This document shows positions 11,863-43,205 of a stretch of 64,000 nt of DNA, in pieces (the stretch's first letter is position 1; every line of letters starts with the position of its first letter). The DNA comes from Bryoerythrophyllum caledonicum. Taxonomy: Eukaryota; Streptophyta; Bryopsida; Pottiales; Pottiaceae. The translations under genes were made by a program, and so were the position numbers. Location: contig OZ020516.1 in the NCBI GenBank assembly GCA_963971425.1, positions 34,150,199 through 34,214,198 of the forward strand, read 5' to 3'. Below the pieces are notes generated by a model. The model was not told where the DNA came from and made no database searches. It worked only from the letters and a program-made list of their open reading frames with translations.

Positions 11863-12483
11863 CTCATGGATGAGTATTACCAATGAATTTTTCCATTTTA
11901 TTACTTCTTCATGTCTTCATTTGATTATTTATTGTTTTGATTTGCACTTCTTTTTAATTATATTATATTTATATTATGATTTCATTTTAATTACACTTGT
12001 AAAATTTTTAAATCTAACAAATACATCTATGGATTGGACCAATTACAACGGATATTTAACTAAATATGGACAAAACAAAGTCCAGAAATAAAAACGAGTC
12101 AAAAACAAGTCACTGAGAAAAAACTCAGTCAGCGGGCAACAGAGGCCAAAAGTAATAAAGCAAGAAAAACTCAATCGACAAATCCGATGTCCCAAAATAA
12201 CATATACCGGTTGCAAAAAAGAGACGTTTATTGATCAGAATAAATTACAGTGTCGGCTGGCAGCCAACCAAAAAGTGAACATCTCGAGAACAAATAAATA
12301 CAACTTCCTAGAAGAAACCATCCTATAATAAAGTTGAACGGAAACTAATGACACGTACATGAACCCTCAAAATCAAATTATACAACACAAATGTTCACTT
12401 TCATGAACTTTACAAAATGCATCCTTCAAATCACGGACAAACACTAATTTGAAGACCATCGGCTGGCAGCCGAAGGAGAAGAC

Positions 12484-13164
12484 CTAGTACCATTCGATTT
12501 CGTCCCATCGGACAACTGTGCACCCACACTCACGTGCCTTTGAAACCGCCCAATGAGACTGACCAGGTCGATGTGCTTGCTCCAAATATTCGGGCACGCT
12601 TGAAAATCTGTGGAGCGGATGGATGAAGGGAAGGATGTCGGTCACCACGTTAGGAATAACATGGTCATTGTCTCGAAGGCTCAAATGACCCTGAAACGGC
12701 CAGGGAATAAAACAAATGTTGTCGGGATTTTTCCTGAGAGACCTTGGGTTCACATCCACGAACAAAACTTGATGAGGCAGGCAGACAGAACGCGAATGAT
12801 TCTTCTTAGAAAGAATAGACATCGTTTTGTAACTCCAAGGAAAATTTTTGTTCTGCGCTAAGTCACGTCTGCTACAGACAAATGACAGCCTATCCATAAC
12901 ACCAACCGGAAGAATATGCCGCAAGACAAGTTGTAACTCCTCCATCGGCAACGTTGACCAAAGCGCAACGTTAAAGCAAGGGAGCAACATATCAAAAAGT
13001 TTCTTCAGGCTCGGCCGGCGAACTATATTCTCATGAGTGCAAGAACCAGAAGTTGGCACACGCGGTTTTACAAAGCAAAGGAGCCCATTGACACAGAGGA
13101 CAACACACTTTCGATACGGTGAAGGGGTTCCATATAAACATTTGAAATAAAAGGATGACCCCTG
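12484..13164 (-). CDS. NIF/FCP1-like HAD pseudophosphatase, gene E
   Basis: About 226 residues are encoded from a strong splice acceptor (TTTTATATTTTCCAG before 13164) to the stop at 12484. The order matches the FCP1/NIF (CTD phosphatase-like HAD) fold: a first strand reading VVLCVNGLLC where active enzymes have DxDxT, then RPSLKKLFD, then ALWSTLPM (motif II), then VLFVDVNP (motif IV region). Both nucleophile and acid/base aspartates are absent, so it should not be a phosphatase. The 5' exon was not identified; the palindrome at 13229 lies in the presumed upstream intron. It is the most divergent and last of four tandem paralogues. Role unknown; a binding or scaffold function is inference. 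Confidence 0.55.
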   Translation of the reverse strand, partial: QGSSFYFKCLYGTPSPYRKCVVLCVNGLLCFVKPRVPTSGSCTHENIVRRPSLKKLFDMLLPCFNVALWSTLPMEELQLVLRHILPVGVMDRLSFVCSRRDLAQNKNFPWSYKTMSILSKKNHSRSVCLPHQVLFVDVNPRSLRKNPDNICFIPWPFQGHLSLRDNDHVIPNVVTDILPFIHPLHRFSSVPEYLEQAHRPGQSHWAVSKARECGCTVVRWDEIEWY

Positions 13165-13490
13165 GAAAATATAAAAGAAGACAATCGTCATGATGCCGAA
13201 TATTAAGGAAGGATGAAAACACTGTACCGTCGGCTGCCAGCCGACGGGGCATAACAAAGCACATGACCATCATCAGAGATGAAGCACAAACATGTGATAA
13301 AGGCAATACATACACACAGGAAAGCTGGAATTAGAAAATTTATCATAAAATCACAAAAATTAAGAAATTACAAGGAAAGGAGGATCAGTTTCTGATTGTC
13401 AGTAGCAATAAAGAGGAATAGAAACTCGAAAAAGCCCATTCGAGAATAGATGAATACTTAGTTTGAGTAGGTTATTAACAGCTTCGATTC

Positions 13491-14657
13491 CTATTCATCG
13501 GGACAGTATGGAGCATCGAAACCCAAGGCCTGGGGATAGATGACCTCTCTGTACTTTTGATGCTGAAACGACCCAGGGTAAAGTCGAGAAGTTCCAAATT
13601 CCCAATTTGTATGGCAGTACTCTTGAACATTGACTCGAGACTTCAAAAGTCCCGAGAGAAAGGGAACTAACGCACTCAATAGATAAGGTTGAATCCCGGG
13701 AACTAAGATCTCCGGAATATTATACTTAAATAGAAAATGATGAACAACATTATAGGGGCTATTGAGGATATTCTGGAGAGGAAAGGGATCAACGAGAAGC
13801 GTGTTCCGCTCATTTGCATCAGGCCCGATTAAAAAGCGTCTATCAGGAAACATTTGGGCTAACCTCTTCAGCAGCGTCGCAGCTGAAGTCGAGGGATTCT
13901 TGGCCGCAGAGGAATCATAGTAGGTAATGCCCAACACTTTTGTGTTCTTTCGCAAGTCAGGGAAAACTTCGAACAAGTGATCCATGTGTCGATGGATCGC
14001 TCTGAAATTATCGGTTGACCAAAAGGGCAACGAAAAGGAGGACTGGCAGAAAGCAAGGAACTCTCGAAGTCCAGGCTTGGATTTCTGATAAAAGCTCTTC
14101 TTCTTAGCATTGCCACGACAAACAAAACTATCGGCGAAGAGAAGCCCCCTTAGTTCAAGGACGAGGTAGTAGCTTGAAGGACCCACTTGAATGTTCTTGT
14201 GAACCAAATCGGAGCTGAGGTCGGCTATTGGAACTAAAGCAGACAAAGGTGTCGGTTGGGAGCCGACGACATTGACACCGATAGGACAAGCACCATCCGA
14301 AACTAAATTGTCGGTGTCTACCACCTCGATGTGACAGCGGGTGGAGCCAGAAGCAACAGCGACATTCCCAGGACGCATCGGTGACACGATCTCAACTACG
14401 ACAACAGGTTTGATTACAACTGCAGGCTCCCCGACACGCTGAAGTGAACATTGGCCATAATCGACATGAAATCCAAGACCGCTAGCCGCAATAGGTAATT
14501 CATGATGCTCCAGTCTCTCGTAATCTCCCAACAGTGAGTAAAAGCCGCTGAAGCGCGGGGAGATATCCGTCAAGTCAACGTCTCCTGGATCAGTCGCAAC
14601 TGCAAATTGGTGCGAAATATTCCCAGGAACTCCGACTTCAAGGAATAAATTTTGCAT
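13491..14657 (-). CDS. NIF/FCP1-like HAD pseudophosphatase, gene D
   Basis: A 388-codon open frame. It has an about 165-residue N-terminal extension of unknown type, then a NIF-like domain: YLVLELRGLLF in place of DxDxT, KPGLREFLAFC, PFWSTDN, and NTLLVDPFPLQN around motif IV. The extension contains an in-frame palindrome copy (14251) read as GVNVVGSQPT. The frame begins ATGCAAAATTTA right after a CTTTATTGACTTCAG acceptor-like site, so the ATG may be a true start or an internal Met of exon 2. Catalytic Asp residues are missing, as in its neighbours. The motif IV context NSPYNVVHH closely matches gene B (NSPYNAIHP), which shows tandem duplication. Confidence 0.6.
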   Translation of the reverse strand: MQNLFLEVGVPGNISHQFAVATDPGDVDLTDISPRFSGFYSLLGDYERLEHHELPIAASGLGFHVDYGQCSLQRVGEPAVVIKPVVVVEIVSPMRPGNVAVASGSTRCHIEVVDTDNLVSDGACPIGVNVVGSQPTPLSALVPIADLSSDLVHKNIQVGPSSYYLVLELRGLLFADSFVCRGNAKKKSFYQKSKPGLREFLAFCQSSFSLPFWSTDNFRAIHRHMDHLFEVFPDLRKNTKVLGITYYDSSAAKNPSTSAATLLKRLAQMFPDRRFLIGPDANERNTLLVDPFPLQNILNSPYNVVHHFLFKYNIPEILVPGIQPYLLSALVPFLSGLLKSRVNVQEYCHTNWEFGTSRLYPGSFQHQKYREVIYPQALGFDAPYCPDE

Positions 14658-14825
14658 CTGAAGTCAATAAAGCAGACATGCATAGATTCAGTGAGGCACC
14701 AATCACAAATAATTGTTCAAAAAACAAAAGAGCTTTATTACCAAAAAATTGTATTTACAGCAAGTCAAGAAAGGTCTGACAAAATGAACATTCGAGGGCG
14801 TCGGCTGCCAGCCGACGCTACAATC

Positions 14826-15540
14826 CTAAGAGGAAGAAATACTAAGACGCATCGAGCTGGGATAAGCTTCGACGTATTCCGCCCACTTTGGGTCATCGGG
14901 CCAGAGTCTAGGATATCCGGTCGAATCGATTTTCTCACAAACATACTCAGGAACAGGCAATCCCGAAGAAACCAAACCGGAAAGGAACTGAACAACAGTA
15001 GGAAGAACGGCATTCTTCAGGGTCTCCTTCGAAGTCAGATTGAACGTCAGGGGATGCATGACATTGAGGGGACTGTTCCGGACACTAGCAAAACAACAGG
15101 AGTCGAGAAGAAGAGTGTTTAGGCTATTCGCTCCAGTGCCTAACAGGCCGGACGGATGTAAAAATAGAGTAGAAAGCCTTCGAATATATAGAGTCCGACC
15201 GTTGAACGAAGTCGTCGCGGTGTCGCAGAAACTGTTGTGGAAACGATGTCTAATTTCTCTAACGTTGCTACACTGTCCCTCGAGAGCTATCATTTGTAAC
15301 TTCAGAAAAGAGTTGGATTGGTCACTCCAAACTGCCACAGTGAAGTTGGAAACAGAGAACTCGAGAAACTCTTTCAGCATCGGCCGAAAGGTGGTATGCC
15401 ATTTCCTGTCGACTCCAACACCTTGCGCCATTAAGAGACCGTTCAAGGATAAGACAAGGAAGTACTTATTGACCTTCTCAGATGGTTCGGCGCAGAGCGA
15501 TAAAGACCACTCACTTGCGTCGCCAACTCCAGAGTCAACC
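14826..15540 (-). CDS. NIF/FCP1-like HAD pseudophosphatase, gene C
   Basis: An exon opens at 15540 after a clear acceptor (CATTCATTTCTTCAG) and runs to a TAG at 14826, about 237 residues. NIF-like landmarks: YFLVLSLNGLL replacing DxDxT, RPMLKEFLEF, VAVWSDQS (motif II), RRLSTLFLHPSG, and NTLLLDSCCFASVRNSP (motif IV). It aligns along its length with gene B, which marks them as recent paralogues. The 5' exon is unidentified; the palindrome at 15726 lies in the presumed intron and another (14800) sits just past the stop. It could also be joined to gene D by splicing, since a GT at about 14842 and an AG near 14640 are compatible in phase. Catalytically inactive by sequence. Confidence 0.58.
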
Positions 15541-15750
15541 TGAAGAAATGAATGGATGACGATGCATGAATTAAGAACCCATCAAGTGCATAGGAACTTG
15601 AGATAATTACAATCGATGTTTATTAGGGGTAAACATTCACACAAAGATAATATCTATGTGCGAACAAAAAATATAATTCCATAGTCATGACGAATGTCAT
15701 GAAAAGAAATGTAATGAATTTAAGCGTCGGCTGGCAGCCGACGGATTGAT

Positions 15751-16685
15751 CTAACGTCTACTTGGAAGTGACCTTGGACGCTTCTCGCTTGGAAAGGACC
15801 AAACAAACTGCTCCCATTCGGGTTCTCCAGGAAGCAACCGAGGGTTCCCCGGGACGGCTACCAGCCGAGTCTTATAAGGGTCGACAGGCTTAGGTTCAAG
15901 AAAGGTCACCCTGCGGCCGAAAGGCACATTAGAGACGACGGCAGCATCAAGCAAGACCACGTCTACACTGGCTGAGAGCCCATCATTCAACTCCGGATTC
16001 GCAACTTGAGGACGAGGACGACGATGCTTGTCACTTTGAAAGGGCAAGGCAAACTTTTTCACCAGGATAAGGTGGTCCACAGTTGAGGTGTACAAGGGTA
16101 TAGTCCAGCCCACTTCCTTCATCGCACTCAGAAAGGAAGTTATCACCGAGAGGGCTTGCCTACTCTCTTTGGCAGTCTCAGTTGAAGTGAGAGTGTAGGG
16201 TATGGGATGAATGGCGTTATATGGAGAATTCTTGACGTTCGAGTACGGATGAACGTCAATCAGGAGGGTGTTGGCGCTATTGGCTCCTTTCCCTATCAAA
16301 TCCCCATAACTAAGAAATAATGTTGATAGCCTCTTGAGGTAGAACTTCTTGCCATCGATAGAATACCGAGCTACGTCGCAAAGGGTATTATCGAAGACAT
16401 GTTTGATTATTTGAAGAATGAATTTGAACTGATCTTGCAGGTCGTTAAGAAGAGTCCCCACTCCAGCCGGGCTTTTGGAACTCCAAATCACGGCAGTAAA
16501 ATTATCAACACAGTACTTGAGAAATTCTTGGGTGTGAGGCCGGAACTTTGTAACACGGTCAGCGCCATGCGTGAGAACCAAACCATTCAATTCAAGTACA
16601 AGGAAGTAATCTTTAAGGGGTGTCAAACCCACCTGAACCATGTACTCAAACGCTTCGGATTGTCGATCTACACCAACCTGCTCCA
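15751..16685 (-). CDS. NIF/FCP1-like HAD pseudophosphatase, gene B
   Basis: About 310 residues. The frame starts at an acceptor (TTCTGGTGCAG or TGGAGCAG) and has no convincing ATG at its head, so a 5' exon is expected upstream of the palindrome at 16770. Domain order: YFLVLELNGLVL in the nucleophile position (E and N in place of the two Asp), RPHTQEFLKYC, AVIWSSKSP (motif II), FYLKRLSTLFLSYGDL, then NTLLIDVHPYSNVKNSP (motif IV), followed by an about 120-residue tail. A possible TATA (TATTTATAAAC) lies on this strand near 16877-16887. It is the first and best-preserved of the four tandem NIF-like genes, and lies directly downstream of the ParB/methyltransferase-like gene. Confidence 0.6.
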
Positions 16686-16952
16686 CTGCACCAGAAGCAG
16701 CAAGTACAGGAGTACTAGTCCCCTGATCAGCTGATTAAAGAAAGACCATAAAAGGACATTAGATCCCTGGTCGGCTGCCAGCCGACAAACCGACTCAGAA
16801 GATTAGACAAGGTCAGAGAATAATTCAGAAAATCAAACATAAAATTAGCAGTGTACCCCAGCACAGAATCATGATGGGTTTATAAATATTTCAGAAAATT
16901 AGTTGCACGTTGGGTCACTAAATTCTGAACCTACAATAAGCTAACTATAAAA

Positions 16953-19900
16953 CTAACCTCCAGATGGATTGTCTGCGCGATCCACGACATGAGACAGGGA
17001 CTCGTTTGGGAGATCTTTGCCATCGGGGGTCATTGGGGTGTTCGGTCTGGAAGAAGAATTGCTTTTTGAACCACGCTTTGCAGCAGAACCCTTCGTCTTT
17101 GCCGATGGTGACGTCGCCCGCTTCTTCCCTGAAGTTTTGCTGGTAGTCTTTGCCTTCTTTGCTTTAGGGCTTCCAAGAGGGACGCCGGTACCCGTTGAAA
17201 TTACGGGAACTTCATTCTTAGGTCCCGGCGGGACAACTCGAGAATCTCGAGTAATCGATCTTCGAGCAGCAGGGTCCGTTGCGAGATTCGGAGGATGGAC
17301 AATCTTTGCATTAGTACCCGCTACAGATGAGACGCCAGTCCGGACAACTCTTTCGACTTGCGGTTGCTCGGCCAAATTGATGACCACAGACCCGGAAGGC
17401 ATCGCCTCTTCCACTATTGTAGGCAACACAACCGGCATGGATGACTGAGGTCCTTGGACGATATGGGTAATCAGATGGTCAAGACTGGTCTTCTCTTCAA
17501 TTATCCCGACATCACGATCAGAAGTCTGGTCGTCCGATAAATCATACACATCCAACGAATTCCGTGACATGGATGCTTGGGTAGATTGAACCACAAACTC
17601 ATCCACAACCTTCCGAGCAAGACGAGAAAATTCACCGTCTTCCACAACCTTTGGCGGTGGCCCAGAAGTCTCTCCAAGCTGGGTAACAACAAATGTCGAA
17701 TCCGACGGCTGAGGCCAGGTGATTCGATTAGAAACGACATGTTCTTAACGCGCTCCTTCGCGATAGCAATGTCAACTTTCTCGCGCACAAATCCAATCAC
17801 AGTTGCTTTCGCCCGGTGGGAAAAAATACGAGAAGATAAGTTAGAAACCCGCTGCAAAAAACTGTCGGCTGCCAGCCGACGACATGCAATGATAAGAATT
17901 GGTAAATGCAGGACAAAAAAAAAGAGCAAGCATGACAAGGGTTAAGGAAACCAACCAAGGCCAAGGCTGTGACATTCCCACCACCCCAGGCATTGAAGAC
18001 AGCCAGGTTTGATTCCTTCACCGCTAAGGTGGGACTCAATATTGCGGTGAGCAAACCCATGCATGGATTGCACACATCTCCACACCAGCTCTCGGTCGAG
18101 GGCGAAGCAGCGTCGTCATAGACAGGATTAAGAGGCTTCGTCAGTCCCGTCACCTTCTTGAACTGGCTGAATCTTTCACGCTCATCACTAGGTTTGTTGT
18201 AGAGGATTCCGACGTTAGCCAGAGGTCTATCGTGCATGGCCGACACCTTGAACTTCCGGCTACTGTCAGAGAGGTAGCGAATTGTGTGGACGACACATAC
18301 TCCTGTCAAACTGTGACATTCCGACTCGATTTGGAAACTGGAGTTGTCGTCGGTAATAAGAATTGTAGGAGCAAAAATCTCAGACTGTTCATCATCACTC
18401 ACTCGCAGCACCCTCTGCACAACTACTTTGAGCTCGTCTCTGCCTATAAAGATCGATTCCCCGGCTTCGTCGAATCCAAACACAACGAACATCTCGCGAG
18501 CTCCCTTCTCGAGTTGCACGTCTCCTTTGTCGTCAATCTTCTTCACCAGTTCGACAAGCCCCTTCGCAACACGAACATCGAAGCGAATAGCAAACTCATC
18601 AACGAGATCCTCATCACAAAGAACGACGTACTTCTTTACTGCCAACCAGAACTCGGGCGGGGCCTCGTTGGTCGTTGGAGTAATCCCGTTGTTCCTCCCC
18701 TTCAAGAATGTTGAGCCAGCATCAAACTGCTCCAATTCGCGTCGGATGTTATCAAGGGTTTCATCGTTGATACCCTTCTCAGCGGCAAGCAACGGAAACT
18801 GCTCATACGCCCAAGGGACATATGCGGACTCTCCAGGCTTCTTCAGTGGATAATCGCGGTACTTCAGCATCAATTCGTTTTTGATGATGTAGTTCATCTT
18901 TACATCCTTTACCCACGACTTCATCGACACACCAATAGCCCCCTTCTCCTTTCCTGCGTTCACCTTAATATAGACCTTCTTATCCAGAATCGCCTCAGCC
19001 AGCTTCATGGAGTCCTCATCACGTAGGTTGACGAGGTACAAAAGGTCCGTGTGCGTGATCTCCCGCTGCGGCATTCGTGGAATCTGAAGAGGAGGTTGAC
19101 CGTTCTCCCCAATTAATTGACCCATCTGCCAAGCGGTGAAAACCACTTGCCACTTGTTGTAGAAATCATCAGGAACGAAAACAAGGGGTAGCTTCTGGGT
19201 CTCCACGTCTTTAGCCTTACTCATAATCACAGTGAGGTGATTCTTGCAAAAATCTTGCAACAATCACGATGAATAGAGTCAGGTTCCAACACATGTAAGG
19301 CCGTCGGCAGCCAGCCGACGGTCAGATACATTGAAGCCAAACAACAAGATGAGCATGAACAAACAAGTGAGCACTAAAAGTACCTTCCAGGCACCATGGT
19401 CTTGAAGCTTGTCAACGCGACCAAGCTCAATCCACCTCTCCCTCATTCTACGAAGCTGGGGAACGTAGGTCTCTTCCGCTTTCTTCTCGGCAACATCAAC
19501 GTTTAGGAGGTTCGAAATTTTCACCAGGTCGTCTTGAGTATTCGACCAGAGTACGATAATGTCCCACTCCATGAAATACTTAGCTCTCGACGATTCGGGG
19601 TCCTCCATCTCTCCGAGCTCCTTACACACAGTATATGTGTACTGCCCACCAATGATGAACCAATGACAATTTGGTTCTTCATACCACTTGTACGTCTGAC
19701 CGCCGAAATGAACTTGGTCCTCCATCATTTTCGGCACGCTCCTGCGAAGAAGTTCCATACCCTTTAACTCCTTGCCATCTTGAGCAGAACCTGGTGGAGC
19801 ACGCAAAGGAACGCAGTATAGTGGCGGTTTTGCCCGCCAAAGACCAACAGCTTTGTAGATGATTCGAAGCTGGTCGAGGCACCTTTCGACGAGTTCACGG

Positions 19901-20936
19901 TAGACCATTCCATGGGGCGCAAGTTGGATCTTTGACGAATGAATCTTTACTGGCAGAACCTGCTGCCCAAACGGATAACAACGCCCTAATCCTTTCTCGA
20001 CCGTGTTGTACATCTCTTCGACCTCCTTACTGTTGGTATTGGATGAGAGGTTGTTCAGACATACCAGCGCTTCGGCCACCGTCTTCTCCTTCGCAGTTTT
20101 CTTCGACGCCCGCTTCTTTGGAGCCGGATCAGGTGCCACAGCAACAACAGTCAGCGCAAAACTGCTAGCCTTTTTTTGAGGCCCTAGGCTTCTTTGCAGC
20201 TTTACGTCTGCCATTCCCCTCAGATCCGCCATTGAGTGCCACTCTCTGGTCCTTCGCCTCCACAAAGCATTCCACCAATTCCGCGCGGCTCTCTGGGTGC
20301 AAGTCGGTAAATTGCATGCCCACCTCCTGTGCTGACGTGCAGAGCTCCTGTGAGCAAAGGGCCCAGCAAATTCGAACAGCATAGGACTCCGGGTTGTCGT
20401 CGGCAACTCGAACCTTCACCTTTAGTAGGAGTCGAATAGAGTTGTCGTCCTCAGGATCTTCCATAATATCCATCACGGCAACAAGGTTTCCACCAAGAAA
20501 ACTCTTGTCCAAGTGCTTCTTGTTGATTTCCATTTCAGTCACCTCCCCTAGCCTCCAGGTAATGCCCCATTCGGTCAATTCAGGACGAGCCTCGAATGTG
20601 GCATTTGGAACCTGATTATCGAGCCAGACTGCCTCGTCCTCACTAATAGAAGGCCCAAACAGCCACTTCAGCTTACTCAACCTGCGCAACAAAATAGCGA
20701 GCATTGCTCGTGAGCCACATCCGAGTAGAACATCGTCGGCTGGCAGCCGATGCAAGAGAATTCCGTCGGCTGGCAGCCGACACTAATGATTACCATTGGA
20801 ACAGAGCACAATTGCTACAATATATAGCATTACTTCATTCAATGGAACTAAGAATTGAAAAATCCAAAATATATACAGCTTGCCGTCGGCTGGCAGCCGA
20901 CGGTGAAAGAGAATTATACCTATCGACTGACGTCAT
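16953..20936 (-). pseudogene. ParB-like and DNA methyltransferase-like fusion gene
   Basis: Four exons fit GT-AG and phase: 20936-20920 (ATG ACG TCA...), 20681-19384, 19242-17952, 17805-16953. All three introns contain palindromes (three, one and one). Exon 2 has a segment resembling the ParB/Srx N-terminal domain: QVLPVKIHSSKIQ, later WFIIGGQYTYTV near 19660 in the position of the GxxR motif, then DDLVKISNLLN. Exons 3-4 end with a class-beta DNA methyltransferase-like motif X/I region: LLTAILSP, FNAWGGGNVTALAL, then ATVIGFVREK...AKERVKN. I could not find the (D/N)PPY motif, so activity is doubtful. The tail is Lys/Ser-rich. The frame breaks twice by one base: at T7 (20171-20177) and near 17733. 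ParB-methyltransferase fusions are known from phages and mobile elements; assignment here rests on motif reading only. Confidence 0.55.
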
Positions 20937-22448
20937 TTTGTCGGCTGCTGGAAAAAACCCGTTGGCTGGTCACTTTGACTCTAGCGCTCGAGCTCCTCCG
21001 CCTCGTTCCGCCTGCTGGGTGCTCCTCCACTGCTTTCTTCAACTTCCGGAAACACTACATCGGCTGGCCGCGGACGGATTCAGTCCTAAACAAGGAAAAG
21101 TCTTACAACCTATTCCTGAAGCTGCTTAACTAAACCAGGAAGAGTAGATTGCAAATGACCCGGTTTGGTGGAAGCCTGACCTTTTATACGTCCTCAAATC
21201 TGAACGCCGCGACCGTTCGATCAACTTTTGTCCTTAATCGAAAGGCCATCGAAGCGTCTCGGTAGTCTGATTATCTGATAGTCTCGGTAGTCTGTCAGTT
21301 TTCATCCAACCGGCTGGATTTACAGTTGGCATTTTCAATTTCATTTAAATTTATTTTTTAATTTTCCAATATTCATATTTACTTGTCGTTTTTTGATCTA
21401 ATGTAACTTTCTTTTTAATATTCTAATTTAGATTTTCTTAAATGTCTCTTTTATATATTCTTTGATTTTTTGAAATTTCTTTTTAGTTTGGCTTTCGGAT
21501 TCGACTCATTCTTCCTCGTCATTTATATTTTGTTTTTGATTCTCTGAAAAAATCTTTTCGAATTTCGCAAGGAAGTTCCATGTTGAAATTTCACATTCGA
21601 TTCCGTTCAAATTTGAATTTGAAGTCCAAGAATGAATGCGCGCGAATTTCTGGGCGCGAATCCACGAAGGTATTTCTGGCGCGAAATTTCAGAATCGACT
21701 TTCGCGCACATTGTTCAGCTAAGAGAGGGATATCAACGCATCTACTCCGTATCCTCTGTCATTTCTCGTCTGCTTCTCTTTAATGCACCTGCTTTCATAT
21801 GCTTTCGTGTAGTATAGATATTGTCTCAGCTTAGATCGTCCGCTTTGCACTTTTCTGCACTGGCTGTATTTAGCATTCAAGCATTCTACCTGTTGCGCGT
21901 TGACAAGCACTTTCTGGAAGTAGGCGTTTATTTATGGTGTAGGCGATCATGTCTAGTTCAATTAAGTTCAATGCTTTCTCCGGTTAGAGCTCAGATTCCA
22001 TGTTCAGTAAAATCAGTGTATTGTCCTGCAGCTTTCTAGATTTTGAGAAGCAATTTGATATTGTGTAAGTCGACCTTGTTGCCTCACCTTAACGCTGATT
22101 CTGCGTTGATCACCTGACTACCTGAAGTCTTGATACCCTAAACACTGGAAACCGAATGTGTGTACAAAAGTGCTCCTTCCCAGTTTGTATCTGCATTCCA
22201 AGAAATCACACACATGCTCTTTTCGAATCACAAATTTCCAAGTCTCATGCAAAAGCACTGAAATCCTTTGGAAGTTCACCCAAAACTCGAAACCCTAATC
22301 TTGAACCCTAATCCAAAAACCTAATGCATCAGTTTTGACTCTGTGACGCATGCATTCACACACTCTCTATTTGTGAGCCGTTCTCGAGCTGGATCCATAG
22401 GTTGATATCTTCGACAAATTTTGTCGGCTCCCAGCCGATGAAGCCCAG
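20937..22448. other. Divergent promoter region between the two clusters
   Basis: About 1.5 kb without a convincing gene. It holds a leftward TATA box, degenerate palindrome halves near 20939 and 21059, an AT-rich stretch at 21.3-21.6 kb and a palindrome at 22423. CCCAG just before 22449 looks like a splice acceptor, so an unidentified 5' exon of the rightward gene probably lies here. Confidence 0.5.
21181..21188 (-). promoter_or_regulatory. TATA box of the ParB/methyltransferase-like gene
   Basis: TATAAAAG on the minus strand, about 250 bp upstream of the ATG at 20936 and within the divergent intergenic region (20937-22448) shared with the transposase-like gene. Just upstream, near 21257-21298, the phrase GTCTCGGTAGTCTG is repeated, a possible regulatory repeat. 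Confidence 0.5.
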
Positions 22449-25400
22449 TTGGCATTCTGGATCATGGACTGCGGACCCATTTTATCGTTTATGAAGAACG
22501 GAAAATCAAGTCGATGGAAGCCACGCAAAGGTGTTCAAGTCACCCTAACTCACTCAGGTCTCTATTATGCTGGACGCGCAGTTGTTCAAAAAATCATTCT
22601 GAGAGATCCATGGATTATTCGTGTCAAGGTAATCGATGTTTCCGATTCGATGGAAATGCCCATTCCGTTCCCAATTGATGGACTATCCATGCTTCGCGAA
22701 TGCTCTGGCCGGTCAATTGATTGGGATGCGGCTGACCTGCGTCCATTTGCTATCATTGACGAACTCAATGAGGATCAACCGGAATCCATATTGCAACCCG
22801 TTGAGGATATCAAACCAGTTTTGTCGTTTCTGAACCTTCGTGACGGAATGAAGGTTGCCCTCCTTGTTGATGTCATGGGTCACAACTGTTGTGCAGGCGT
22901 TGGAGTTATCGACGAGTGCTCACCAAAGGGATCGTGGGAAGGGTTCCTAATTCCTCACAACTTTTTTCTGGTTGTCCGAGTCCAGACAGTAAATGTTAAG
23001 TTCTTCACTCATACCGCATACTGCGAGCTCCCTGAGGTGATCACGCTTGGTGACACGGTGGGTAACCTTGTTCTCTGGAGTGGCTATCGAGTTCGTCCCA
23101 TGCGTGTCAGTGACGACACTGGATACTCCTCATCTGATGAATATTGAGTGAGTGAGATGTCAGGCGCTTCGGATGACGACGATCGCAGGGACATAATCTA
23201 TGATGAGAGCACTTTTCAAGTGTCCACAGGATTCAATGTGGATTCAGGAAGCGACTCCGAAGCATATCAAGAGCGATATGAGGACGTTCCGTCGGTTTGC
23301 AGCCGACGTTCAACTGATCAACCACCGATTGAAGCAACCTTCCCTTCAGGGGTCAATTGTGATCAATTTCAGTATCCGGATCGACCACAATGGAGGAACA
23401 AGTACTGCCATTTGCTCGACAATAATCTCGCTTTAGTTGGGCGGGCGATGATTCAAGTTTGTCTCCCGCATGAAGCATGTGATGCGGACGTTTTGGGCGA
23501 CACTGACGTTGGCGTACTCTTTGTTTCTAAGCATGAGAATCTTCAAATGACGACGCTGCGCTGGAAGATTTTGCACACGCGCCTTGAAGGTGGTCCACTG
23601 CTGTCAGAGTGCCTCATCTACTGCTCTGAGCACAATCAAGCCACATGTAAAGATGACGGGCTTGAGGGGGTGGCCAAAGATCCATACAGAGGTATGAAAC
23701 GGAAGCTTAAGCAGAAGTGCGATGTTTCTGTTACCAAGTTTCAACGCCTCCAGTCCAAAGATTCTTGTCAACTTGTTAGTTCGAAAAAGTGTTGTTCGAG
23801 ACGATGCTCTCAGATTTTTCTTTGGACGGACACTTGTAGAATCCGCCAGGAGTTCTACTCCTCAAGCTTTGAGCAACGGCGTGAAACTGCGTACGCTGTT
23901 CAGGGCCAGCTTCACAATGTTCCTGGCTTCCAGAAACCCTTCATAACTCTGCATGGTGTCGACGTTTGCAAAGTTGCGTGGTTTCGCATTCATGGCGTCT
24001 CCAAGTCTGCATACTACAAGTATAAATCGGATTCATTGAACGGACGCGTAAATGGTGGTCATGGAAATGCGGGAATTCTGCGCCCCAGGTCTCAGACTGT
24101 TCAGGCTCGTGGGACCATTTCCAGAATCATCAACGATAATGCAGACCACATGCCAAATGAGTTTCGAGTCATCGGCAACAAGAGGGTTGCATCTCTGATG
24201 GTTCTTCCTGCTGCGATGGACTGGAATCATCTCCGTGATATGTCCAACTTGGTATGGTTTAACATTATTACTACTTGTACATTTGACTTGCTCATATATC
24301 CCATTGTGTCGGCTGGTAGCCGATGCATGTCTATTTTTGCATCTCATTAATTCTACTTCATTAGTCTTGATCGCTATCTCTTTCGATTCGAGGTGAACTC
24401 TGAATGTTGTGTCAAGCCGATTTCGCAATCTGCTGTTAGTCGATTGAAACGGAAGTTTTTTCGGAACGTTGAAGTGAAGGCCGTGGGTAGCAACTTTTCG
24501 AGATGTACCGAGTGTGACTATCTGGTTGAGTTTCTAGCCAAATATCCTCGCGGGTCCGACGAATGGCAAGCACTGCATGATGATCGGGCGAGGCATCTCA
24601 ACTACCAAAGTGCTTGCCGTAATGTGTACTCCGGATGGACATCTCAGTCCATTAATTACCCGTCTGAGTTTCTCTGCATTATTCACGACAAGATGGACAC
24701 TTCAAAGACGGTCATTCGAAGAATACAGCGGATTACGAAAGCGACCGCAGGTCTTGGACAGAGATCCTATTTCATGTACTGGCATGCTTACTCACGGTCA
24801 CGGCGACGGTGCGTATGCGCATTACTCCACGTCTTTATGGCCTGGGGACTCCAATTTCACAATTTCGTCCATTTGCCGTATTCTTCGGGCATTGGAGCGC
24901 CGACCTGTGCGTGAGTCAAAGTAGCTTTTTACATGTCCACCTCAGAATTCGTTCTTTGAATCTTTACTCCATGGTAAATCTAGATGTAGTTCGTCGATTC
25001 CAGAAGCTAGGGGCGATCCCCTTCCAGTTTCTTCGCTCGCTCAACCGGAAGTTAAGCTTCCTCGGAAACTGTATCTCCAACTTGATAACTCTGCAAAGGA
25101 TAACAAGAACAGGTTCGTCATGGCCTTCTGTTCGCTTCTCACAGCCAGACGAATTTTTAAGGAAGTGACTATGGGATTCTTGATTGTCGGCCACACTCAT
25201 GAGGACATTGACGCGCATTTTAGTTACCTTTCAAAATTCATCAAACCGAAAAACATTTACTGCTTAGCTGACCTCATGAAATCTTTCATGGACTCTCAGA
25301 AGACAGTAGCATTTATTCCTGAACTTGTTCAAGAGGTTGCTGATTTCAAAAGTTACATTGCTGATTTCCATCACGAAGGCAAGAATAAGCTTGTTGGCCT

Positions 25401-26568
25401 TGGTGAGATGCACCTTTTCAAATTTTACGTTGAAGAGGAAGGTGAAGATGCGGGATGGCCGGTCATGAGATACAAGAGAAGTGCGACGGATTCATCATGG
25501 CTCCCTCCAGGTGAGGCTCATTTGTTTTTGTCATCGTTCTGTTTGCATTCATTTTCTGCTGATTTTCTTGTTACTTATTTGTCGGCTGCCAGCCGACGGA
25601 TTTTACCTTTGTGCTTCTTTTGTCCTTCATTCCTTCCATTTCATTGTTTTCTTGTCTTTGTCTAACTTTTTTGTATATTGCATTCAGATAAGCCTATGAA
25701 GATGTGGACGGCAGATCAATTCGGGAATCCTAACCTTCCGATTGGTGATCCAAAACCAGTACCCTTCAAGCCGCTTTGGGGTGACGTTCATGTCAACGAA
25801 TCGAAGCGAAACAAGGAGAAGGAGGTTGCAAGAGCGACTGGAAACAACGAGAAGCAGTCCTTTATCAAGAACGGTATTGCAAAGTATATTGAGTTCTGGA
25901 AGACAGGCATGGCTCGAGACAAACGATATGCCGCGGATATGGAGCCTTTCATTGATTATTGGGAGCGTCTTTTACAACTAATATTTGGTCCTCTCCCGCC
26001 AAACCCCGATTGTCTGCAAGAAGGATTCTGGCCGAAATCGGACTGAATGCGTGATCATGCTCGCGCAGCGTCACAGCCGGATGCAATTATTTCCGGCTTG
26101 GATGTCACACCAGAAGATGAGCCTGACGCTTACCCTTTCTGCGGCCCGGAGATGAGCCGTCCGAAATTATCCTTCAATCCATTTCGTGATGTTCTCGTTG
26201 GTGATTTTGTACTCTACCGACCTTGCACTGGGCATTACCTTCCTGTGTGGATGGGCCGGGTACTGGAGTGCGTCAACCACAGTCCTGGGGATTCCTACGG
26301 AAACTTTAAGGTTGAATGGTGAGTTCCACTCACGACCAAGAAAGATTCTAAGAAGATCATCGGGAAGGAGTGTTGGAATAGGCGGTGGGAGCGTGAGCAC
26401 AGGGATCCAGATATTCAGAACTGTAGTATCGTTCTCTTCTCGCATCACTACCCGTCTCATAATAAACGTGGGCCTCCAAAGACCCACCGTATTCCACCTG
26501 AAGCAACGAGCGCTGCAATGGCTTGTTTGGAGGCTGGTGGCATCTCTGTTCATGGCAGTAGCGAATGA
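22449..26568 (+). pseudogene. Transposase-like gene (HTHEDID family), decayed
   Basis: Exons read 22449-24251, 24393-24910, 25004-25510 and 25688-26568, with GT-AG borders and consistent phase; introns 1 and 3 each contain a palindrome. The N-terminal part carries a beta-rich module ending LGDTVGNLVLW, like the DUF8039 domain of plant transposon proteins. Then come CCSRRC cysteines, HGVDVCKVAWFRIHGVS, NGGHGNAG, FSRCTECDYL, FLCIIHDKMDTSKT, GMLTHGHGDGAY, LQLDNSAKDNKN and FLIVGHTHEDIDAHFS. This order matches a widespread transposase-like family (DUF7869-type) with probable acidic catalytic residues in DKMD, LDN and HTHEDID. Damage: in-frame TGA at 23145, 26044 and 26320, and a one-base frameshift near 24762. 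The reading frame otherwise stays open for about 1,300 codons. The first ATG is at 22464. Confidence 0.7.
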
Positions 26569-27073
26569 TATCATTTTCTTGGTCGGCTGCCAGCCGACGG
26601 GTTGATGTTTTCTGCAATGTAATTCGTTCATCATATATTAATTTGAATGCTGCCTGGAACAATAGTATCTGCCCGTCTTTCGGCCATTGATACATTTTTC
26701 AAGTAACTCATTTGTCATGATCTCAGTCTGAGTAGTTGGTGTTATTCTTGTCGGCTGCCACCCGACAGCCTCTATATTTTGCATATGCAGTTCGATCCAT
26801 TTTTTGTGGTCAAAGTCTTCGTGCGTGTGAAGGAAAGACTTAAATCTGTGGCACGTGTGTTGCTCAGTATCATAATGACGAGTAGATGGGTAGTTGTACA
26901 TGAGTAATTATTGTTGATGCGCAATTTGCGGCAAGTGAATTATAAATTCACGGATTCACTGTATGTGAAGTATGTCATTGTGTTCAGTTGTTTTTGTGTA
27001 TCTTGGTTTACATTTGCCACAGGTTGGAGTGATTTCTTCTTTTCTTAGTCTGATTTTGTTTCCAGCCGACGAC

Positions 27074-27508
27074 ATGGTTGAGACTCGTAGTATGGCGCTT
27101 GTCAGGAGAGCGAGAGAGGAAAGGGAGGAGAGGGAGGCAAATGAGGCCAGAGTTGCCAGGGAGGCAGAGTCTCAGAATAGTATAGTGTCTGAAAACTCTG
27201 TGGATAGCACTGTTCCGTCGACTGACGTTCATGAGGAGAATTGGAACGAGGAAGATGACGAAGAGGAGTCCAACCACGATGTCGATTCAGACGACGATGG
27301 CGGTCAGCATGTCGTTGCACAGTTGGGATGCTCTGATGAAGATGACCTCCACTGCAATGGATCGGACGAGGTGGACTTGTGGGCTACCGGAAACTTTGAC
27401 AGCGATTTGTTTTCAAGCTTTTCGGGTAATCCATTTGAAACCGGATGCGACACCGGTTCAGACGTGGACTCCGATATGTACGCTCCTGCATGGCGTAAGA
27501 ACTGGTAG
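27074..27508 (+). CDS. Small acidic protein
   Basis: 144 residues starting MVETRSMALVRR. A basic/Glu-rich helix-prone N-terminus (EEREEREANEARVAREAE) is followed by an acidic Asp/Glu/Ser-rich region (NEEDDEEESNHD, DSDDDGG, GCDTGSDVDSDMY). TATAAATT lies at 26941, about 130 bp upstream. A degenerate palindrome half precedes the ATG, and full palindromes at 26582 and 26750 separate it from the transposase-like gene. I recognise no domain. The acidic Ser/Asp style resembles residues 230-280 of the neighbouring transposase-like frame, which may mean common origin or shared function within the element. Confidence 0.5.
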   Translation: MVETRSMALVRRAREEREEREANEARVAREAESQNSIVSENSVDSTVPSTDVHEENWNEEDDEEESNHDVDSDDDGGQHVVAQLGCSDEDDLHCNGSDEVDLWATGNFDSDLFSSFSGNPFETGCDTGSDVDSDMYAPAWRKNW

Positions 27509-28748
27509 ATGTGAAGTGTAGTTCAGCTTGTAAATAGTCCTCTGCAGTTGCTTTTCTCTAATCGATTTTCGAGACTGTTGCCATCTATGGGGCACCTCCA
27601 AATGTAACATTTATTTTGACTAAAATATTGTGCTCTATTCGGATCTTATCCTTGATGTACTTTATTTTAGTCAAGCTTGTTTTACCTTTCTGTTTTGATG
27701 TTGTGCTTTGTAGAATGCTGTGTATAATAGAATTTTGTTATCAATGTATTCTCTTGATGGTCGTTTATATATGTTCAATATTTTACGTGCTGCCAATTGG
27801 CAGTCATCTTTTTATGAAACCCACTTCCTCTTCTTTGTTTCTGTCTTCAAATTGATCACTTGTATTGCATTACCCACTTTGCCGGACTTACTAGATGGAT
27901 GTTTTTTTCACAACATTCTGTTGGCAGGATTTCATTCTTTATCATTGAAGTTCTTCTTGTCGACTGCCAGCCGACAACCTTTTTTTATTTCGAGTTTGGA
28001 GATCATCTGTTTGCCCTTCTTACTCGGGCCTTTACTCTCTTAGTGTTTCCCTAATTTTTCAGGAGATCATTCTGCCATCTGCTACTATATTTGCAAGCTG
28101 CCTGCCGGGAGCCTTCTTTGTTTGTAGTCCACTAAAGTCTCTGTTGTCCGTCGGCTGCCGGCCGACGTCTGGACTCGTAGGACAAACCACGTTCTTTGTT
28201 TTCATGTTGACCACCTCTCATTGCTTCATATTTTTGGTTTAATTTCCAAATTATCACCTTATTTTTCATCCCATTTTTTAAATAATTTGTTTGATCATTG
28301 GAGTTTTTTTACTCACCTTTTTTGATCATGAGATTTCTTCTATATAAATATTCGGTGATTCTGATTCCTCCTCTTTCTTTGTCGGCTGGCCCCCGACCTT
28401 TAATTCTATCTTCGAGAATCCTTAGGGCATATGGACATTCTTTAGGATTCAAGGAGAATATTTAGGGTCTGGGAGAATATTTAGGGTCTACGGAGAATCT
28501 GTAGGTTTTTGGAGAATCTTTAGATTTTGTGGATTGACAGCCAACGCTTAAAGTTAAGGATTCTAGTGGTTTTGAAGAGACTTTATTATGATATGAGACA
28601 GTTATTATAGTTTTGTGTGGGACAATGTTTGGTGGCACGCAATTTCGAATGTATATGTTTAGGATTTAGCCCATATTTTCTTGTTTTTTTGTATGATATA
28701 GGAAATGAAATCCGAGTCTAAGTTTTTTTTTGGTCCATAATTGATCGA
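27509..28748. other. 3' flank of the palindrome block
   Basis: No gene recognised. Three palindromes (27959, 28150, 28381) lie here, then a short run of similar phrases near 28430-28530 (GAGAATATTTAGGGTCT, GGAGAATATTTAGGGTCTAC, GGAGAATCTGTAGG) with a period of about 20 bp. The last about 120 bp (28650-28774) resemble 32270-32375. Confidence 0.6.
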
Positions 28749-29189
28749 TTTGTCCATATTTAGTTAAATATCCGTTTTACCAATAAAGTTTTTTTTGGTT
28801 GGTAAAGCTATTAATCTAATGTTGATAAAAAGTTTATTAAAAGCCTTACTAAATCATGTTAATAACTTCACTCCTACAACCTTTATTTGTAGCTTGGGTG
28901 CCATGCTAATGGAAAATTTGGATTAATTCCAAGCTTAATTAAAAGTAGTCGAAAACCATATTGATAATTTCACTCCTACAACATCTATTTTGCAGCTTGG
29001 ATGCGATGCTTGTAACAATTTGGAAAATTTTAGGAAAATAGCTTCAGTTCCATGCTAATAAATTTTTTGTTTTAAGCCTAAGGTTTATTAAAAGTTATTT
29101 TTTAACTGTATTGATAATATACGCCTACAGCATTTGTTTTGCAACTTGGGTGTCATACTTATGGCAATTTGAATTAAACCCGAGTTTTA

Positions 29190-30502
29190 TTAACCCCTAA
29201 AGGACCAAGTGTCAAAAATGGGCTTTTTGAAAGTTCAGCCATGTTCCTATGGTGTCAATTTCCAACATTCCACTTTGAAGTTTTTACTGTAGAAGGGCAT
29301 GATTAAGACCTTAGTGGGAGAACCATTTTTCCTAAATCTGACATACCGTAGGTGAACCTCTAGTTTGGCACCTCCATGCCGAACAATTAATTAAAGTGAC
29401 TAAAGGTCATTTGGCATCCAAAATAAAAATAAATTTGTTTTTGGCAAGAAATCACAAATTATTGTATTTAGCACATTTGACGACCGTGGGGTTTGAAGCC
29501 AAGACCTTGGGGTTCTAAATCAAAGCCTCCATGCATGCACATCCTTGAAGGGAGGCTTTTCCAAGTCCCACTCCCCTTGATGTCTTCCAATGTGACAAAA
29601 TCTATAAATATATAGTTTCTCTAGTTTCGGCAATTTCATAAAATATTTTCCCACTTAATTCGGCAAGCATTTTTCTAATTAATAAACACCAAACTAGAGG
29701 TTCACCTACGTTAGAATGAAAAAGTTATAGGGTTTTGAATTTCAAATGGGGATAGCGGGCACTCCGGGCACCTCCAAAAACTCTTGCTAAGACATTCTAT
29801 TGATGGTGAGGTTTTCAATATCAGCAAGTAATACTTTTTCCCTTCATGTTTTCAAAAAAATTCTCGTGCTTTAGTGAAAAATAGCATATTAATCCAAGTC
29901 AAACATTTTCACACATTGTCCGGCAAGGTACCAGAAAAAACTTTTTTCTTTTCCATATAAAACTTAGAGATCTTCATATTTTTGACTTTTTTTTTCCACA
30001 ACAATATGTAGAATAACTCTTCTTACTGACCATTTGGATTATCAATATAAAACATATTAACTTCACAAAAAATTAAAAGGCAAATTGGCAATTTTTGAAC
30101 CTCTACTCCTTGCACAATTGTTTTGAATATGCTACACCCCCTCCTCTGCCTCTAAAATTTGGTGTATAAGGAACTAACATCATGCTTAACACAATGATAA
30201 TGGGTTTAGACCTTGTGTAGTGCAAAAAATTGACACCAAGTGAAGTCAAAGTCTCCAGATCCAGTTAACATGGGGAAGAAAATGAACCATTTGCTTGACT
30301 TCAAACACTATAATTTTTCAATTTGTGCGGTCAAAATTTATGAATTTTTTTGAGTATCTTACTGAATAAGTCTGAATTGAAATCCTACGGTCGAAGCTAC
30401 CTAGAAATCAAATTTTTTATTTCCTTCTTTATTTATTGCACTAGAATCCAACTATTTTGAAGTGTTTTTGATGTGAAAATGTCACGGTACATTTGGGGTT
30501 AA
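29190..30502 (+). mobile_element. TTAA element, 1.3 kb, inserted in satellite
   Basis: Bounded by TTAA at 29190-29193 and 30499-30502, with ends TTAACCCCTAAAGG and, as complement, TTAACCCCAAATG. The flanks rejoin into a satellite unit (GTTTTATTAAAAGCG). No long ORF; non-autonomous. Its interior is a diverged inverted copy of the next element (30816-31741), for example GGCAATTTTTGAACCTC here versus the complement there. Confidence 0.85.
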
Positions 30503-30815
30503 AAGCGTTTCAAAACCATGTTGATAGTTTCACTCAACAACATTTATTTTGCAGCTTCAATGCCATGCTTATTGCAGATTTGAAATAAACCTAAGTTTTA
30601 TCAAAAGTCTTCGTGAACCATCTTCACAATTTCACACCTACATCATTTATTTTGAAGTTTACATGCCATGCTTACGGCAATCTTGGTTTTAACCCAAGGT
30701 TTTAAAAAGCCTTACTAAACCTTGTTGATAAATTTTCACTAACATCTGAATTTGCAATTTGGATGTCATGCTTATGGCAAATTTAGTTTAAACCCAAGGT
30801 TTATAAAACGTCCTT

Positions 30816-31741: not shown

Positions 31742-32190
31742 TTGTGTTGATAATTCCTCTCCTACATCATTTGTTTTGCAACTTGGATGCCGTGATTATG
31801 GCATATTTGGATTAAGCCACAGATACTTTAAAAGTCTTTCTAAACAAGTTCAATGTTGATAATTTCACTTCTACAACATTTATTTTGTTGCTTTGGTGCC
31901 ATACTTATGGAAAATTTGGTCTAAACTCAACTTTCATTAAAGGCCTTTATAAACCATGTTAACAAATAACCTCCTATAACATTTATTTTGCAGCTAAGGT
32001 GCAATGCTTATGGCAGATTTTTGGATAAAGCCCATGATTTAATAAAAGTCTTTCTAAACCATGTTGATAATTTCACTTTTTAAACATTTATTCTGCAGCT
32101 AAGGTGCCATACTTATGACAAATTTGGTTAAAACCCAAGGTTTATTAAGAGCCTTTCTAAGCCATGTTGATAATTTCATAACAACATTTA

Positions 32191-34110
32191 TTTTAAATCT
32201 ATCTTTGTGTGTTTGAGAGTAGCCAGCAAGTTTAGTTCATTTCAATTGTACATTCTTTGAAAAATTTCCCATATGTGCATTTATTTCTAGGATAAACGAC
32301 ATGAATTTTGAGCCTCTGTATTTTTGTTGGTCCATAATTGATTGATTTGTCTATATTTTGCTAAATATTTGATATAAATGTTTACTAATCACTTTCATAT
32401 TTGGTATTGTATAAAGTGTTGAAAGTACTCATGGCTAAGTGTTTATGTTAAACTCCTTCATTTCATTACTACTTCATGTCTTCATTTAATTATTATCATT
32501 TTGATTTTCACTTAGTTTTTTAAGATAATATTTTAGTTTTGGTATGATTTTTATTTGACTTGTGGAAATTTTAATTTTATTACTTAAACTTTTAATTTTA
32601 CTAATAATTTTTTTTTTTTACTTGTAGAACTTTTAATTCATCTTATATGCTTTTGATTTAATTAGTAAAACCAACAATATTATTACAAAATTTTAAATTT
32701 TAAATATTTTTACTCGTAAATAAATATTCTGACTTGACTATTAAAAAATATAATTTTTGTATTGAAGCTTTTAATATTCTGGTATAACTTTTATTTCCAC
32801 TTGTAAAAATGATAATTTTTGTGGGGAAGTTTTTAATTTTGATAGTTAGGCTTTCAATTTGTTTAATAAAATTTTGAATATATTAACCAAGCTTAAATCT
32901 AAATGATATAGCTTTTAATTTTAACAGATATTTAACAAAATATGGAAAAATGATCATAATTTTGTAGACAACTCAAACTCTGAATTTTTATCGGCGGCTA
33001 GCCTATGCTTCTCCTCATTTGGAGCTTTCAAATGATCATAACTCACTTAAATTTTGTCCAAATCGAACATATGAGGTGTTTTTTGACATTTAAATTTTTC
33101 ATAGATGTCAAAAAACACCTCATATGCCCAATTTGGATAGTATACGAGTGAGTTATGCTCTTCATAAGATCAATGATAAGATACTTTGTCAGCTCTTGGT
33201 AGACCACCAACCATTATTTTTGGATCCTTTTTTTTCCACATTAGTTATTTATTTGTTTTTTTCCTAATAAATCTTGTGATTATACTTGTGAATCTTAAGT
33301 ATTTCTAGAAAATATTTTAACTTATTTAATAAAGCTTTTCATTTCAATTGTAAAGATTATATTTATGTTATTCAAGCTTTTATTTTGACTAATAGAGCTT
33401 ATAATTTTACTAGTGAAGCTATATTATCTTGTTGGTTAAGCTATTAATTCCACTAGTAAGGCTTTTAATTTTCTTGTAAGGATTATATTTTTTCTACCGT
33501 TTGATTTCCAAAAGGCTATTTATCTCACTCTTTGCTAAGGTACAATAATACTATTGATATTAGTAAAGTTTTTAAGAGAAAAATTAGCGCTTTAAATAAG
33601 TGTGGCATTCTATTCCATATAGTAATCTATCTTAATTGAAAAAGGGATTAAGTATGAAGGTTTGATCATTTAATGTACAATACTTCTAATTTGTGTTGTA
33701 ATAGAGTGCATGTGTTGAAATGAAGCTTCAAGAGGTGCTTCATTAATAAATGAAGTAAGGTAACAACTCTGTTGATTTCTTATTTCTTTCTACATAATAC
33801 TCATTGAATAATGTAGTTTTTCTACTATTTCTTCAGATGCAGTCGACCCTCTTTAAATATTAGTAGTTGGGAGCAGAAAAAGTCATAACACTTATTGTAA
33901 ATAACACATATCAAAAAAAAAATTTATAAGACGTCAAAAATAATTGTAACACATATTGAAAATAACATTGTAAAGACTTCAAAAATGATTTTACAACGTT
34001 TATAAAAGTGAATGACAAAAGTACAATAAAATATGAATAGCAATTCAACTAAGCTAATTCAAAGAAAGAATATATTATGGTTTGACAATATTCCTTCACA
34101 TGCCAACAAC
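32191..34110. other. AT-rich region, no gene
   Basis: Very AT-rich, with the AAGCTTTTAATTTTACTAG-type degenerate repeat at 32.55-33.5 kb. Diverged forms of the 26-bp end sequence of the 16.7-kb block occur near 32350 and 32927, and a decayed palindrome (ATCGGCGGCTAGCCTAT) near 32990. These may be remains of an older copy of that element. Confidence 0.5.
33037..33157. mobile_element. Hairpin element, 121 bp
   Basis: Near-perfect hairpin: the arm core CATATGAGGTGTTTTTTGAC pairs with its complement across a loop of about 15 bp, and the ends CATAACTCAC and GTGAGTTATG pair as well. Likely a small foldback MITE. Confidence 0.6.
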
Positions 34111-43139: not shown

Positions 43140-43205
43140 CGCAGCCACCCCCTCCTCCTCCACGCGCGCTGCACACAAACCGCCCACCCCCCGCTCCCCG
43201 CTCAA

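Follow-up and report, generated by a model that had tools for sequence, protein, structure and literature searches.

We found that a 16.7-kb block in the genome of the moss Bryoerythrophyllum caledonicum, within a 64,000-nucleotide window (GenBank assembly GCA_963971425.1, contig OZ020516.1, positions 34,150,199 to 34,214,198; all coordinates below are those of the window), is almost certainly a real DNA transposon, and that this element holds 23 copies of one short palindrome, GTCGGCTGSCAGCCGAC. Its plus strand carries a transposase-type gene and an acidic open reading frame (ORF), and its minus strand a gene with a ParB-type motif and four domains resembling NIF/FCP1 phosphatases. On the best reading the element is likely a giant DNA transposon carrying a ParB-like/methyltransferase accessory gene, with the palindrome as its likely binding or marking site.

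The element is bounded by terminal inverted repeats (TIRs) of 31 nt, whose arms agree at 30 of 31 positions (97% complementary) and share a perfect core of 28 nt (12047-12074 and 28749-28776), slightly longer than the perfect 26-bp inverted repeat that an earlier note on this DNA had described. The five nucleotides directly outside each arm are identical (CCAAT on the left and on the right), a duplication absent from that description. Together with the TIRs, the two CCAAT copies set the element at 16,736 bp (12044-28779), five bases more at each end than previously given. These flanks fit insertion with a 5-bp target-site duplication (TSD), and a 4-bp duplication would require the two ends to differ in length by one base. 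Furthermore, an older second copy of the right end lies outside the block, aligning over 89 nt that end near 32376 with a local alignment score of 91, whereas 100 shuffles reached 30 at most. Since its homology ends at the TIR, this copy supports the right boundary. A further TIR-like match with three mismatches was found at 32923, while the remaining parts of the element had no match in the window flanks at E <= 1e-3. The diverged ends at 32376 and 32920 are about 540 bp apart, with their bodies pointing away from each other, and they are possibly the remains of older insertions. We also observed a repeat of about 102 bp to the right of the element (28833-28990, 30501-30808 and 31853-32178), one part of which begins less than 60 bp from the right end.

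The proposal of a transposon-like unit that brings a gene set of its own is supported by the TIRs, the target-site duplication and the second right-end copy in the window, and by the transposase-type gene, whose moss relatives include proteins from two different Ceratodon contigs. It is highly improbable that the block is instead composite, with a TIR element that landed next to or around a host gene cluster unconnected with it. Captured host genes are a possible origin of the NIF genes, and the window shows no second copy with this gene order, but the TIRs and the CCAAT duplication enclose the whole gene set, and the palindromes are spread over the transposase side and the NIF/ParB side alike.

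All 23 palindromes, found with at most three mismatches (nine are exact), lie inside the element, and none occurs in the other 47 kb of the window. The number expected was 0.02, and none of 100 shuffles reached 23; the earlier note had counted about 21 copies. A looser limit of 12 matches in 17 positions gave 31 hits, 27 inside the element and four outside, the latter being background. Only three of the 23 sites fall in coding sequence, against a coding share of 67% (binomial P 1.7e-7, under a hand-made exon model), and the same three stay coding under revised exon edges. Eight of the nine introns that can be drawn contain a palindrome, as do six of the seven better-supported ones, the exception being 24911-25003. 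In a test that merged sites within 100 bp, a merging chosen after seeing the data, the spacing of the sites is more even than random, with P 0.0012 when judged by the largest gap and 0.017 when judged by the variation. No Rfam family matched in the window.

The plus-strand gene, which the earlier note had called transposase-like, matches Pfam DUF7869 (PF25273) with E 2.6e-37, and its product is very probably the transposase of the element. A weak predicted model of the protein resembles integrase cores and points to what is probably a DDE-type transposase, for which we infer a chromatin-reading (BAH-like) tail. Comparison of the model with a viral fold library returned nothing at E <= 0.001, a profile search of PDB sequences returned nothing convincing, and DUF7869 was not found in the literature searched. 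Three in-frame TGA codons (23145, 26044 and 26320) interrupt the gene, as does a frameshift near 24760, so the copy in the window is unlikely to make its own transposase.

A protein search with the transposase gave 10 relatives among 3557 candidates. The best is an ORF from a metagenome (P0001, 66% identity). Next come two Ceratodon purpureus proteins, one at 57% identity (locus tag UG068900, contig of 112 Mb) and one at 59% (7G136300, contig of 18 Mb), and a Physcomitrium patens protein at 55%. A relative from the liverwort Riccia (P0009) is more distant, at 29%. The Ceratodon and Physcomitrium proteins, which align at 55-59% identity across 71-76% of the query region, are annotated as hypothetical or DUF7869 (PF25273) proteins, and as judged from these matches the DUF7869 family is present in mosses. 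The two Ceratodon tags, UG068900 (P0002) and 7G136300, come from two annotation sets; we read the first as standing for the U sex chromosome and the second for chromosome 7. In a side-by-side comparison by eye, the TGA codons at 26044 and 26320 align with tryptophan in P0001. Another relative, P0005, is 83% identical to P0004 over 515 columns and 56% identical to the first 227 residues of the window gene, and it continues without a stop. This shows the first ORF to be part of the transposase-type gene, and that copies lacking the first stop exist.

The places of the palindrome are conserved in P0005, a Ceratodon-like relative with about 56-60% protein identity. The ORFs of P0005 and P0001 extend into non-coding DNA, which there spells the palindrome (RLPAD, with RLSAD before the P0005 start), the sites being deduced from protein sequences and not from DNA. 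In P0005 the palindrome of the first intron lies 61 nt past the donor, compared with 56 in the window, and the palindrome before the ATG ends 21 nt upstream of it, compared with 24. P0001 has its palindrome in the same intron, with 44 codons between it and the following exon. At least one near-match to a palindrome-type pentapeptide is present in 6 of 11 relatives, with exact matches in P0001 and P0005 only. Against 500 shuffles, P0005 lies beyond all, P0001, P0004 and P0008 fall at 0.02-0.05, P0010 at 0.07 and P0002 at 0.29; these pentapeptides are readings of the consensus, and the test was made after P0001 and P0005 had been seen. Five relatives, including P0003 of Physcomitrium, have no near-match.

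The ParB-motif gene runs opposite to the transposase, from 20704 to about 17741, and encodes about 906 aa in our model; its first acceptor is weak, and its first exon is interrupted near 20184 by a frameshift in an A7 run. Hidden Markov model (HMM) and profile searches with this protein gave nothing in Pfam and NCBIfam up to E 10, only chance-level matches to unknown or tail families in PHROGs, and nothing in PDB; by sequence, no methyltransferase chain in PDB was matched either. A structure predicted from a two-sequence alignment had a predicted local distance difference test (pLDDT) value of 33 and was unusable. One relative, P0011, was the single match, among the matches listed, from 7999 candidates scored; it is 37% identical over 31% of a chimeric query and shares with the ParB-motif protein the motif HWFIIGGQHTYTA, also given as HWFIIGGQ. 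Another protein search with this gene gave none among the matches listed (7993 candidates), with length limits that may exclude exon-sized ORFs. The earlier label of a ParB/methyltransferase-like gene therefore has no HMM family match behind it: ParB is a reading of the motif, and methyltransferase is weaker still. We accordingly refer to the minus-strand gene by its motif only and do not file it as a confirmed ParB/methyltransferase.

Next we consider what the palindromes do. Their mismatches are roughly symmetric and are fewest in TCGG and CCGA, and 44 of 46 CpGs are kept across the sites, which had been selected by similarity. Paired positions do not covary more than in shuffles: the score is 0.120 and the shuffled mean 0.103, and 89 of 500 shuffles score as high. 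The central base occurs in both orientations (11 G, 12 C). Collectively, the symmetric mismatches, the lack of covariation and the two central bases speak for a DNA site with dyad symmetry, bound by a dimeric protein, rather than for an RNA hairpin. We lean slightly towards the palindromes being protein-binding sites used at the DNA level.

Hairpins occur at gene ends of giant viruses, and the palindromes could be RNA hairpins of a similar kind, placed in introns and untranslated ends where they would guide transcript processing such as 3′ end formation and splicing. The location of 20 of the 23 sites outside coding sequence, and of one in six of the seven better-supported introns, fits such a role. 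So do a site 13 nt past the transposase stop, another 9 nt past the last NIF stop, and two that, should NIF ORFs 1 and 2 be separate genes, lie 8 and 9 nt past their stops (in the joined model both sites are intronic), as well as the places kept in P0005 relative to the ATG and the intron donor. NIF ORF 3 and the acidic ORF have no palindrome near their ends. We nevertheless regard RNA hairpins as rather unlikely, given that compensated pairs are few, with covariation not exceeding shuffles, that the central base takes both orientations in each gene half, and that palindromes also lie upstream of the minus-strand gene (20735-21059) and in coding linkers.

CACTA and Ac elements have subterminal repeat arrays that are bound by the transposase, and the palindromes here might likewise be binding sites of the transposase itself. 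They are specific to the element and some are close to both ends (12252 and 12458; 28150 and 28381), yet they span the whole 16.7 kb including its centre and are unlike the TIR sequence, which makes this explanation unlikely in our view. The lowest probability among the explanations of the palindrome itself goes to tiny mobile or recombination-prone inserts that have spread passively into non-coding gaps and have no function. The preference for non-coding DNA would agree with passive spread, as would a placement that seems variable, for the P0005 linker has VGCPPT, which the palindrome can encode, where the window has a gap. Such inserts are improbable when 47 kb of flanking DNA holds no copy, when the spacing is regular, and when a relative whose protein identity is about 56-60% keeps the places.

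What we infer for the function of the palindromes is that the array would act at the level of DNA as the signal by which the element recognises itself. A protein encoded by the element, and most likely the ParB-like protein as a dimer, would bind the TCGG...CCGA half-sites along the element, and binding or modification of the sites would keep the element DNA accessible or mark it as its own. The ParB-like protein is a tentative candidate for the palindrome binder. A fuller version, which is possible but doubtful, would make the array the cis component by which a land-plant transposon establishes its self-identity: the 17-19-bp sites would be recognised by the ParB-like/methyltransferase protein that the element encodes, and this protein would deposit a mark that guards against silencing or singles the element out for the transposase. 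The array would then be a eukaryotic analogue of parS or of modification sites, maintained at regular density over the full element. The divergently transcribed ParB-motif protein and the four probably inactive NIF/FCP1-like domains are further cargo. Given the broken transposase gene, any further movement of the copy in the window would depend on a transposase made by another copy. Taken together, and including self-recognition through the palindromes, the element is probably a decayed giant cut-and-paste DNA transposon of moss-type genomes.

The earlier note had also listed four tandem pseudophosphatase genes and an acidic protein. We found the NIF (PF03031) signature in four ORFs, three above the Pfam cut-off and one below it (13.9 against 21.8 bits), and the acidic ORF is present. 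NIF/FCP1 phosphatases have a catalytic DxD motif. In all four domains the Asp pair of this first motif is replaced (C..N, E..R, S..N and E..N), so the domains match the family of NIF/FCP1-type C-terminal domain phosphatases but lack DxD, and with both catalytic residues replaced they are predicted to be probably inactive. The four ORFs can be joined as a single open chain of 1394 residues with all junctions in phase; the junctions 16957/16730 and 13544/13161 score well, whereas 15772/15513 and 14842/14635 score poorly. The four domains thus possibly lie within one gene, the alternative being separate genes, some without an evident start. Where the NIF chain and the ParB-motif gene meet, they are in different frames. 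The statement that all genes of the block bear introns held in part: phase-consistent introns were found in the transposase gene (three), the ParB-motif gene (two) and the NIF chain (four, two of them with weak splice sites), and none for the acidic ORF.

Table 1. Features of the element and its surroundings in the window.
Feature	Position	Strand	Remarks
Target-site duplication, left copy	12039..12043		CCAAT
Left terminal inverted repeat	12044..12074	+	31 nt
Array of 23 palindromes GTCGGCTGSCAGCCGAC	12252..28397		both halves of the element
Palindrome positions, 1 to 12	12252, 12458, 13229, 14251, 14800, 15726, 15853, 16770, 17864, 19303, 20735, 20765
Palindrome positions, 13 to 23	20885, 21059, 22423, 23291, 24308, 25581, 26582, 26750, 27959, 28150, 28381
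NIF/FCP1-like pseudophosphatase exon 4	12484..13161	-	E 3e-7; includes stop codon
NIF/FCP1-like pseudophosphatase exon 3	13545..14635	-	E 0.044, below Pfam cut-off; ORF to stop at 13491; weak upstream splice edge
NIF/FCP1-like pseudophosphatase exon 2	14843..15513	-	E 1.6e-6; ORF to stop at 14826; weak splice edges
NIF/FCP1-like pseudophosphatase exon 1	15773..16730	-	E 1.2e-10; ORF to stop at 15751
Low-complexity K/S/P-rich coding segment	16958..17744	-	in phase with first NIF exon via intron 16957-16731
ParB-motif (HWFIIGGQYTYT) gene	17741..20704	-	exons ~20704-19384, 19242-17956, 17851-17741
Transposase-type gene	22464..26568	+	DUF7869 and C-terminal SH3-like/BAH-like part; 4 exons modelled
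Transposase-type gene exons	22464-24251, 24393-24910, 25004-25510, 25688-26568	+
Transposase gene intron 1	24252..24392	+	palindrome 56 nt past donor
Acidic 144-aa ORF	27074..27508	+	no family above cut-off
Right terminal inverted repeat	28749..28779	-	31 nt, 30/31 against left arm
Target-site duplication, right copy	28780..28784		CCAAT
Older second copy of right end, outside the block	32239..32376	-	~80% over 89 nt

Elsewhere in the window, an ORF at 51282-53336 on the minus strand, beside the reverse transcriptase ORF of a non-long-terminal-repeat retrotransposon (reverse transcriptase at 54431-56695), contains RNase H and PCIF1_WW (PF12237, E 1e-10). The PCIF1_WW family is linked to cap-adenosine methyltransferase, and the match is odd cargo for a long interspersed nuclear element. 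In the right flank (41176-43214, minus strand) lies a host gene resembling amidophosphoribosyltransferase, with GATase and Pribosyltran domains in two ORFs, and at 217-731 a GC-rich 21-bp tandem array is readable as a repetitive protein in several frames.

The earlier note assigned the block to an unknown family, which is too strong, as a giant DNA transposon with an accessory gene of this kind has been published (PMC12477816). This is Sola1-1_Ec32 of Ectocarpus, 21.5 kb long, in which a ParB-like plus DNA methyltransferase gene of 1104 aa lies opposite the transposase; the same passages report that transposase genes of giant families are frequently broken, cite green and red algal cases, and suggest that ParB-like proteins of this sort may bind and modify their own transposon (PMC12477816). 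Our element is likewise a giant DNA transposon with an extra gene opposite the transposase. It differs in that the ParB/methyltransferase assignment here found no HMM match. The word stem of palindrome is absent from the main text on Sola1-1_Ec32 and NIF proteins from the passages of it considered here (PMC12477816), and neither the NIF array nor the palindrome array was found in the passages on giant transposons that we consulted.

Sola elements, in the passages available, have a DDD transposase, a 4-bp TSD and TIRs, exceed 15 kb in some cases, and are reported in the moss Physcomitrella patens (PMC10741241). The TIRs, the size of some members and the occurrence in moss are alike, whereas the TSD is 4 bp there and 5 bp (CCAAT) here, with symmetric ends. 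A Sola-like element is plausible; given the TSD of 5 bp as read, we do not file it under Sola. Giant EnSpm elements of red algae are described in part of the same literature as large, with several accessory genes, and ParB/methyltransferase-like proteins are attributed to the same work (Petroll et al. 2025, cited in PMC12477816). Our element is similar in its large size and accessory genes. EnSpm elements have a TSD of 3 bp, compared with 5 bp here.

A viral or prokaryotic origin of the element was considered and rejected. In IMG/VR the palindrome is found in only nine stretches on eight contigs, one site each. With two peptide patterns per contig scan, tblastn of the transposase and of the ParB-like protein gave no relatives in viral contigs, and the ParB-like protein had no relatives in prokaryote genomes or phage records.

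If our reading is true, the palindrome would be a candidate target for the published idea of accessory proteins that bind or mark their own element, for which the passages considered here name no target site. With 23 copies in the window, all inside one element, and with two of these recurring at corresponding positions in a relative, the proposal of self-marking is made testable. Our results suggest that element-wide DNA labels and arrays of dead phosphatases can travel on a plant transposon.

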